Source: Parcubacteria group bacterium GW2011_GWA2_51_10
GTDB taxonomy: Bacteria > Patescibacteriota > Minisyncoccia > Phycocordibacterales > UBA2100
Length of the DNA stretch: 33,182 nucleotides
Reading direction: 5' to 3'
Assembly: GCA_001004265.1 (NCBI GenBank)
Contig: LCQS01000013.1
Location: forward strand, 1-33,182
Shown here piece by piece: positions 4,487 through 24,500 of the stretch (position 1 is its first letter; each line of letters starts with the position of its first letter). Below the pieces are notes generated by a model. That model did not search any database. It was given only the letters and a program-made list of their open reading frames with translations, and was not told the origin of the DNA. The position numbers were made by a program, and so were the translations under genes.

Positions 4487-4598
4487 GCTGATCTCCTTTG
4501 CTTATTATCGTTCCCGAGTGGAAACGCCGTGCAGACTAAAGCACTAGCTGTCACTCATGTCAACATTTTCAAATGGTGTTGTCTCGTATACTCACGCG

Positions 4599-5900
4599 AT
4601 GACGCGCGACGAATTAAAAAAAATTAAGCTGCCTGATGCGCCGGGGGTATACAAATTCATAGGGGCGGATAAAAATATATTGTACGTCGGTAAAGCGGCA
4701 TCACTTCGGGATCGCGTACGCAGCTATTTTGCGAACGATCTTGCAGGAGCGCGCAGTCCGGCTGTCGCTGGTATGGTCGCGCAGGCGGAGACGGTCACAT
4801 GGATCGAAACAGGCTCTGTACTTGAAGCGCTCATTCTCGAAGCAAATCTCATCAAGCGGCATCAGCCGCCATTCAATGCGGCATCGAAGGACAACAAGAG
4901 CTTCAACTACCTCGTCATCACGAAAGAAAATTTCCCACGTGTCCTCATCGTCCGTGGCCGCGAATTGTTTTCTTCCCCACTCAAAACTAAAAATTCAAAA
5001 CTAAAAACTATCTTCGGTCCGTATCCCCACGGCGGATCGCTCAAAGAAGGATTCAAAATTGTTCGCAAAATATTTCCATTCCGCGATTCGAAATGCATCC
5101 CCTGTGAAGACCAGAAGAAAGTTAAAACTCATCTGCAACCGAGAGTGAGCGAGGGCGTACTGAGCCGAGCACGGCGAATGTGTCGCCCGTGCTTCAACAG
5201 ACAAATTGGATTGTGCCCGGGCGTGTGCACTGGCGAAGTTACAAAAGAAGAATACGCACAGACAGTGCGGCATATTTGCGAATTGTTCTCCGGCAATTTC
5301 AAAGGCCTCAAGAGGCAGCTGACGAAAGAGATGAAGGAAGCCGCGAAAGCGGAAGATTTTGAAAAAGCCGGAATGTTGCGTCGCCAATGCGAGGCACTCG
5401 AGCACATCCGCGACGTATCGCTGATCAAAGAAGACAGAGCGACAGGAATATCAACCGGGGGAGGATTGCGCATCGAGAGTTACGACGTGGCGCACACAGC
5501 AGGCAAGGAAACTGTGGCGGTCATGACGGTCGTGAACAATGGCGAATCCATAAAGGATGCATATCGCAAGTTCAAAATCCATTCCGCAAAGAACAATGAC
5601 GTTTCCGCTCTGAAGGAAGCGGTAAGCCGCCGCCTCGCGCATCAGGAATGGCCGTTGCCACGGGTATTTGTCATTGACGGGGGAAAGGCGCAAGTACGTG
5701 CCATCGAGCGCGTGCTGCGCGACGCGGGAATTGAAATCCCGGTTGTTGCCGTTACAAAAGACGAATTCCACAGGCCCGCAACAATAATCGGCAACGAACG
5801 CATCGCTCGCGCGCATGAAGCAGACATTCTTCTCGCGAACAGCGAAGCCCATAGGTTCGCAATCACGTGGCACCGACGCAGAATGCGGAGGTCCATGTGA
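4599..5900 (+). CDS. uvrC: UvrABC system protein C, no C-terminal HhH domain
   Basis: GIY-YIG start DAPGVYKFIGADKNILYVGKAASLRDRVRSYF; C-x2-C...C-x3-C cluster; RNase H-like VFVIDGGKAQV and HRFAITWHRR; start re-assigned to 4599 (TATACT at 4587-4592). Confidence 0.92.
   Translation: MTRDELKKIKLPDAPGVYKFIGADKNILYVGKAASLRDRVRSYFANDLAGARSPAVAGMVAQAETVTWIETGSVLEALILEANLIKRHQPPFNAASKDNKSFNYLVITKENFPRVLIVRGRELFSSPLKTKNSKLKTIFGPYPHGGSLKEGFKIVRKIFPFRDSKCIPCEDQKKVKTHLQPRVSEGVLSRARRMCRPCFNRQIGLCPGVCTGEVTKEEYAQTVRHICELFSGNFKGLKRQLTKEMKEAAKAEDFEKAGMLRRQCEALEHIRDVSLIKEDRATGISTGGGLRIESYDVAHTAGKETVAVMTVVNNGESIKDAYRKFKIHSAKNNDVSALKEAVSRRLAHQEWPLPRVFVIDGGKAQVRAIERVLRDAGIEIPVVAVTKDEFHRPATIIGNERIARAHEADILLANSEAHRFAITWHRRRMRRSM
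5134..5179 (+). repeat. In-frame dispersed repeat unit in uvrC (peptide PRVSEGVLSRARR)
   Basis: ACCGAGAGTGAGCGAGGGCGTACTGAGCCGAGCACGGCGAA aligns with the ung 48 bp units and the 8.7 kb repeat. Confidence 0.6.
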
Positions 5901-8680: not shown

Positions 8681-8780
8681 GGTTGCACATTCGCGCTGCT
8701 GCGCTCAGTACGTCCTACATTCGGCCTGGTGGCCTCAGCGTTTCCTCGTTCCCACTCGGTCATCGCTCGCTCGGTTGCAC
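8681..8780 (-). repeat. Non-coding relative of the uvrC/ung repeat family
   Basis: Minus strand GACCGAGTGGGAACGAGGAAACGCTGAGGCCACCAGGCCGAATGTAGGACGTACTGAGCGCAGCAGCGCGAATGTGCAACC. Confidence 0.6.
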
Positions 8781-23610: not shown

Positions 23611-23743
23611 ACCCCGTTAGAAGTTCTCGGCAGAAAAATTTTATTAAAATTTTTCTGCTCTAGATTAACGGAGATATGGCAAAAAAGCTGATTATGTCTC
23701 GGACAAATGATTATAATCAAATAAGTCAAACTTCTAACGGGGT
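23611..23743. repeat. Nested inverted-repeat element at the 5' end of ung
   Basis: ACCCCGTTAGAAGTT (23611-23625) / AACTTCTAACGGGGT (23729-23743) enclosing GCAGAAAAATTTT-att-AAAATTTTTCTGC (23630-23658). Confidence 0.85.
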
Positions 23744-24500
23744 AAAAATAGAAAGCTCGTGGAAAGCGGCACTCAAAGATGAGTTCGGACGGGACTATTT
23801 CAAGGAATTGCGCGAGTTCGTCAAGGGCGAATACCAGCACGCCATTGTGTACCCGCCGCCGAAGAATATTTTTCGTGCGTTCGAGCTATGTCCTGTCGGC
23901 AGCGTCAAAGTCGTGATACTCGGTCAGGATCCCTACCATGGTACGGGGCAGGCGAACGGACTTTGTTTTGCCGTCAATGAAGGTGTTCCTCTGCCGCCGT
24001 CGCTCCAAAATATATTCAAGGAGTTGGAGAGTGATTTGGGCGAATCGGTGGAAAATAAAAAGGGCGACCGAGCGCAGAGCGAGGAAGTCCTGAGGCCAGC
24101 AGGCCGAACGGGCGACCGAGCGCAGAGTGAGAAAGTCCTGAGGCCAGCAGGCCGAAGGGGCGATCTTGAGCGTTGGGCAAGGCAAGGCGTTCTGCTTCTC
24201 AATGCCACGTTGACCGTGCGCGCCGGAAGCGCCGGCTCGCATCAAGGCAAGGGCTGGGAAGAGTTCTCCGATGCAGTCATACGAAAGCTTTCCGACGAAC
24301 GCGAGCATCTTGTTTTCATTCTCTGGGGTAATTATGCGAAAGCCAAGGGCGCCCATATAGACAGGAGTAAGCACCTGGTCATCGAATCGGCGCACCCCTC
24401 GCCTTTCTCTGCCGCCAACGGCTTTTTCGGTTCAAAACCCTTCAGCAAAACGAATGAGTACCTAGTGACCCACAACAAGAGGCCCATTGATTGGCTGTAG
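23676..24500 (+). CDS. ung: Uracil-DNA glycosylase
   Basis: VVILGQDPYHGTGQANGLCFAV, WARQGVLLLNATLTVRAG, HPSPFSAANGFFG. Confidence 0.95.
   Translation: MAKKLIMSRTNDYNQISQTSNGVKIESSWKAALKDEFGRDYFKELREFVKGEYQHAIVYPPPKNIFRAFELCPVGSVKVVILGQDPYHGTGQANGLCFAVNEGVPLPPSLQNIFKELESDLGESVENKKGDRAQSEEVLRPAGRTGDRAQSEKVLRPAGRRGDLERWARQGVLLLNATLTVRAGSAGSHQGKGWEEFSDAVIRKLSDEREHLVFILWGNYAKAKGAHIDRSKHLVIESAHPSPFSAANGFFGSKPFSKTNEYLVTHNKRPIDWL
24062..24157 (+). repeat. Two tandem 48 bp in-frame repeat units in ung (GDRAQSEEVLRPAGRT / GDRAQSEKVLRPAGRR)
   Basis: Units differ at 3 of 48 positions; located between KELESDLG and LERWARQGVLLLN. Confidence 0.9.

Follow-up and report, generated by a model that had tools for sequence, protein, structure and literature searches.

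The analysed window, that is, the whole 33,182-nt stretch of the contig, contains a uvrC gene (4557-5900, forward strand, 447 amino acids) and an ung gene (23676-24500, forward strand, 274 amino acids). The UvrC product has GIY-YIG, UVR, and RNase H endonuclease domains (Pfam) and scores 282.9 bits against NCBIfam TIGR00194, slightly below the cutoff of 285.45. The Ung product matches Pfam PF03167 and NCBIfam TIGR00628, and about 25 N-terminal codons of its predicted open reading frame may lie upstream of the real start. Perfect 14-nt inverted arms (CCCCGTTAGAAGTT ... AACTTCTAACGGGG) at 23612-23742 surround the predicted ung start and enclose an A/T-rich hairpin; the real start may be located downstream.

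Both genes carry members of one repeat family. The uvrC copy (5136-5182, forward strand, 47 nt) encodes QPRVSEGVLSRARRM, while ung has a tandem pair of 48-nt copies on the forward strand (24065-24112 and 24113-24160, together 24065-24160). A further copy, at 8686-8777 on the reverse strand, is intergenic and nested, in that a complete inner element (about 8716-8762) lies between the outer module 1 and the outer module 2. The repeat unit of 47 to 48 nt is composed of two small hairpin modules in direct orientation: module 1 is CC-GA-GC, a short loop, and GC-GA-GG (about 5136-5154 in the uvrC copy), and module 2, in the same orientation, is GTAC-TGA-GNNN-AGCA-NNNC-GAAT-GTGC (about 5155-5182). 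When module 1 was searched alone, the clear matches were those joined to module 2, and the others were weak, with two or three mismatches.

The repeat boundaries are uncertain by 1 to 2 bases. A G lies immediately to the left of the repeat in 44 of 57 copies; most of the others are nested, and no longer motif is found there. GGGCGA, a candidate target-site duplication, occurs at every ung repeat boundary, but the element itself starts with CGA and its stem accounts for the GGG. No Rfam match was obtained for the ung array at E values up to 1, and a single tRNA is the only match in the window at gathering scores.

A preliminary description of this DNA had placed the uvrC repeat at 5134-5179 and aligned it with the first of the two ung copies, leaving the second unused. 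Both repeats are real, and the proposed consensus, scanned over the window, gives two matches (both in ung) at three or fewer mismatches versus 0.00 expected. The uvrC copy escapes this ungapped consensus because it is one base shorter, so that a gap is needed; past the gap, the two genes read the repeat in the same frame, as claimed (QPRVSEGVLSRARRM versus DRAQSEEVLRPAGRT).

Distribution and hairpin structure of the repeat family

With a covariance model trained on eight copies, 12 are detected in the assembly, which spans 711 kb and is 79% complete; among them are those in uvrC, ung (two), purL, purE, and several intergenic places. The uvrC copy, which was in the training set, scores 65.9 bits (E value of 2.8e-11 for the genome), and the model also detects copies outside the training set, for example, at C12:1156. 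The further copies for which the preliminary description had suggested a scan are thus present in the genome as well as in relatives. At least one copy exists in 21 of 146 genomes (the source genome and 145 relatives, i.e., 20 carriers besides the source), with 1 to 12 copies per carrier; these genomes are incomplete metagenome assemblies, and some of the copies are related by descent. In wider sampling, copies were found in 28 of 384 members of the class, spread over 25 genera, and in 1 of 380 genomes of the phylum. Scanning 84,980 species for the exact pattern returned 17 stretches, the named lineages being Kaiserbacteria, Lloydbacteria, Taylorbacteria, Yanofskybacteria, and Parcubacteria. 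The strict repeat pattern had no match in viral contigs. The family is a dispersed repeat of Paceibacteria, a class of tiny, uncultured bacteria.

The hairpins are supported by covariation. In 50 copies aligned without a model, the proposed pairs are formed in 92.3% of cells, versus 80.4% after shuffling and at most 45% when the pairing is slid, and double changes occur at 10 of 12 pairs, in 60 cells versus 11.3 in shuffles. RNAalifold independently recovers the same helices. The stem sequences vary freely, and the AGCA-like loop and the TGA and GAA flanks are retained. The single-strand DNA folding energy of individual copies does not surpass that of shuffles, a result probably due to G.A pairs being left out of the scoring; the case for structure accordingly rests on covariation.

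These data bear on the simplest alternative, namely, that the segments are ordinary diverged loops whose likeness is due to chance or low-complexity composition. Both segments do lie in loops, and the UvrC linker is variable in length. However, we regard this reading as highly improbable, considering the chance expectation of the consensus scan, the strong covariation, and the occurrence of the repeat in intergenic DNA, in each of the two coding frames, in antisense orientation, and in other species; the additional copies refute it.

Host genes, reading frame, and unit length

The window Ung has exactly 32 extra residues (2 x 16) between ESVENKK and GDLERW. The insert is missing from 28 of 29 Ung relatives, in which the loop is short, and from solved uracil-DNA glycosylases. 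The exception among the relatives (L103, the ung of G041) has a different, shorter repeat-like insert, LLARRSLGEV (GTCGAAGCCTTGGCGAAGTCGG), in the same loop.

Other hosts that are supported by Pfam and contain the element within their reading frame are glutamate dehydrogenase, CTP synthase, RsmH, an RlmD/TrmA-like methylase, and two epimerases, and an in-frame copy is present in PurL of the source genome. Comparison with solved structures of glutamate dehydrogenase and CTP synthase shows that the repeat is an insertion there, too. O-antigen ligase carries an in-frame element in three species, at the same site and with compensatory alterations of the stem sequence, and in one O-antigen ligase copy a second element is nested in the first with the reading frame still open. 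N-terminal positions are occupied in TGT, MsrB, PPDK, ClpP, and PurE, where the copies may lie upstream of the true starts of the host genes. Hosts outside the genus include DnaX and seryl-tRNA synthetase (SerRS). DNA repair is not the common factor, because most host genes have other functions.

The third sense frame of the repeat is closed by the conserved TGA in TACTGAG, and the two open sense frames encode DRASSEEVLRPAGRMC and RPSVERGSTEASRPNV. By our count, about seven independent genic events use the DRASSEEVLRPAGRMC frame and about seven use the RPSVERGSTEASRPNV frame. With the CTG frame and the other open frame used about equally, the sharing of a frame by two genes comes close to a coin toss, and the significance originally attached to it is not supported. 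Among genic copies, which are mostly 48 nt, 18 of 20 have a length that is a multiple of three, versus 18 of 33 elsewhere (Fisher P = 0.014, or 0.050 once related copies are merged; genic and intergenic classes were assigned by hand from open reading frames and Pfam), the pattern expected if frameshifting insertions are selected against. By the model, the copies in uvrC and purL are 47 nt long; thus, one extra base is needed to keep the frame, and in uvrC the flank can supply it.

About 14 of 16 genic events are in the sense orientation (P = 0.004), and the two antisense events are both N-terminal. This bias, together with the O-antigen ligase site that is the same in three species despite compensatory stem changes, could mean that the repeat is not selfish and is kept for an RNA or peptide function, such as mRNA stability or a regulatory hairpin. 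We consider this unlikely, since the hosts have no pathway in common, two different peptides are used, and at each site most relatives are without the insert; a sense bias can also stem from the more hydrophilic character of the sense peptides. The preliminary idea of a coding-compatible mobile repeat family, in contrast, is well supported by the 12 copies in the genome, the copies across the class, the empty Ung site in relatives, the tandem and nested copies, and the in-frame copies in many unrelated enzymes.

The UvrC Cys linker and the search for a mobiliser

In UvrC, the repeat falls between the Cys pairs, in agreement with its earlier assignment to the Cys cluster, and the Cys linker is longer than in most relatives. 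If the conserved Cys codon TGT is taken as the right edge, the net insertion would be 16 codons, from CTG to ATG. Hairpins scoring at least 9 are present in 16 of 30 uvrC genes of the genus, and in 14 of these 16 the strongest hairpin lies in the Cys linker, versus 1.3 expected by length (P of about 4e-14). A score of 12 was reached by none of 145 synonymous shuffles, and nine uvrC genes score 12 or more. The hairpin sequences are mostly unrelated between uvrC genes. In two genomes (G036 and G012), the uvrC linker hairpin shares an identical stretch of 20 nt, in frame in uvrC, with a palindrome located next to or inside a RAYT gene from that genome, and in a third (G050), the linker hairpin and the RAYT palindrome have 13 nt in common. 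The identity in G036 and G012 indicates that RAYT-linked palindromes enter the uvrC linker, and the window's family is another entrant. The UvrC Cys linker is thus a hot spot for hairpins and appears to be a tolerant loop that unrelated hairpin repeats have entered independently.

Perfect or near-perfect palindromes that differ between species were observed in the Cys linkers of L134, L133, L147, L146, L155, L156, L161, L149, L145, L151, and L135, several of which have a common CTAATTCGCGCGAATTAG core and differing outer arms. A 38-nt palindrome (GGGTTTCGTAAACCCC...GGGGTTTACGAAACCC) is present in a second uvrC loop in L150 (the uvrC of G033, around codon 147), at a position near the LKTKNSKLKT stretch of the window uvrC. 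The latter is encoded by a simple repeat, (TCAAAACTAAAAAT)n, at 4979-5010, and L142, from another species, has a nearly identical stretch in its Cys linker.

The source genome has a RAYT-like gene, and such genes also occur in 18 of the 20 other carriers. None of 86 Y1_Tnp (RAYT/Y1) loci of about 3 kb each, taken from the incomplete assemblies of the source genome and the 20 other carriers, contains the repeat; searches of these loci with the model and with loose patterns for either module gave only one match, of 14.7 bits (E value of 0.28). IS200-type TnpA genes in G007, G117, and G140 were considered as linked mobilisers and rejected, as no unit copy lies in their flanks.

The RAYTs of the genus carry their own flanking palindromes, which are different from the 48-nt family. 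In two cases (G000:C2:21264-22740 in L009, and G036:C16 in L097:1273-2004), the flanking palindrome of the RAYT-like gene is also found inside the coding sequence of that gene; that of G000 is in frame (KKHRGRFSGEIF), and the G000 RAYT repeat CAGAGGTNGGTTCTC has 13 copies. Another coding repeat family, a tandem CTTCGACTACGCTCA-type repeat with STTLTTGG units, exists in a CapA-like protein (L001, about 1100-1280, G000:C4).

It is conceivable, if not the more probable course, that the 48-nt family is of the REP type and owes its mobility to a RAYT (Y1 tyrosine transposase) that is encoded in a stretch absent from the assemblies or acts on the family in trans. The frequency of RAYT-like genes among the carriers fits this reading, as do the palindromes of the genus RAYTs and the 20-nt stretch in the uvrC linkers of G036 and G012, by which RAYT-linked hairpins demonstrably reach the same uvrC loop. 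However, the Y1_Tnp loci are devoid of the family, the only RAYT-like gene of the source genome is flanked by another repeat, and the hairpins of the family are imperfect, directly oriented, and free of the GTAG/CGTC tag, unlike the RAYT palindromes found here.

Proposed mode of spread and comparison with known systems

We interpret the family as a non-autonomous dispersed mobile repeat of Paceibacteria, the genic copies of which have been filtered for frame, length, and a tolerant loop, and we assign this interpretation a probability of roughly 0.8. What is established is that the element recurs, that covariation supports its structure, that some copies are tandem or nested, and that it occurs both within and between genes. 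Counted against it were the lack of a linked transposase, a copy number that is low for a REP, and the ordinary folding of single sequences. The hairpins would be recognised as single-stranded DNA by a transposase acting in trans, in the way that REPs are by RAYTs, and a new copy would be pasted beside a G. A copy in a gene would then survive if the net gain in length consists of complete codons, if the host frame meets a stop-free frame, and if the hydrophilic peptide of 16 residues lands in a loop that tolerates it; under these conditions, the frame shared by uvrC and ung would be an effect of the filter. Only tentatively, and aware that it may well prove wrong, we suggest that permissive loops of Paceibacteria core enzymes, the UvrC Cys linker foremost, are recurrent landing sites for unrelated mobile hairpin families, and that the 48-nt family is moved otherwise than by a flanking RAYT and has a unit length tuned to whole codons, making it fit for life inside genes.

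Streamlined, mostly uncultured bacteria thus harbor active-looking repeats inside essential genes, often without disruption of the frame, where the insert lengthens loops at the protein surface by 16 residues, for example in DNA repair enzymes; odd protein insertions can therefore be mobile DNA rather than new domains. As a single loop in which a range of hairpins occurs naturally, the uvrC linker allows a test of whether insertions are selected by the loop or by the DNA site, and the question of which enzyme moves a repeat without a linked transposase becomes testable as well.

Non-autonomous IS200/IS605-type elements, a possible parallel, have two subterminal hairpins on the same strand that are recognised by TnpA, a fixed short target at the left cleavage site, and no target duplication. 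The 48-nt family likewise has two same-strand hairpins, but it is far shorter, and no transposase gene was seen between or beside them. The RAYT palindromes of the same genus (e.g., L097, L198, and L087) resemble the family in their in-frame entry into the uvrC linker, whereas they are perfect, linked to RAYTs, and unrelated to it in sequence.

Our literature search, which left most subscription journals outside its reach, returned no report of such repeats for Patescibacteria. REPs inside genes, many of them replication and repair genes, including excinuclease ABC, have been reported previously (Di Nocera et al. 2013, PMC3733652). Like these GTAG- or CGTC-tagged REPs, the present repeats, from the class Paceibacteria, are short hairpin repeats that lie in frame within genes, singly or as dimers, and they share the character of a short, structured, dispersed hairpin (covariation on 50 copies; 12 copies). 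However, by inspection of the alignment, the foot of the stem lacks the GTAG or CGTC tag; REP copies flank their cognate RAYT, number more than 100 per genome, and are paired in opposite orientation (BIME, REPIN), whereas the 48-nt family is at 0 of 86 Y1_Tnp loci, has 1 to 12 copies, and has direct modules. As several REP features are missing, we do not class it as a REP. The classic in-frame case is that of the Rickettsia RPEs, which are also intergenic (summarised in PMC2229807 and PMC10969869). RPEs, too, are mobile hairpin repeats found in frame in unrelated conserved proteins and between genes, although they measure about 105 to 150 bp and have terminal inverted repeats of about 12 bp, in contrast to the 47 to 48 bp and two hairpins of the present family, in which no clear terminal inverted repeat was found by inspection. 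By analogy, the 48-nt family probably works like an intragenic REP or an RPE.
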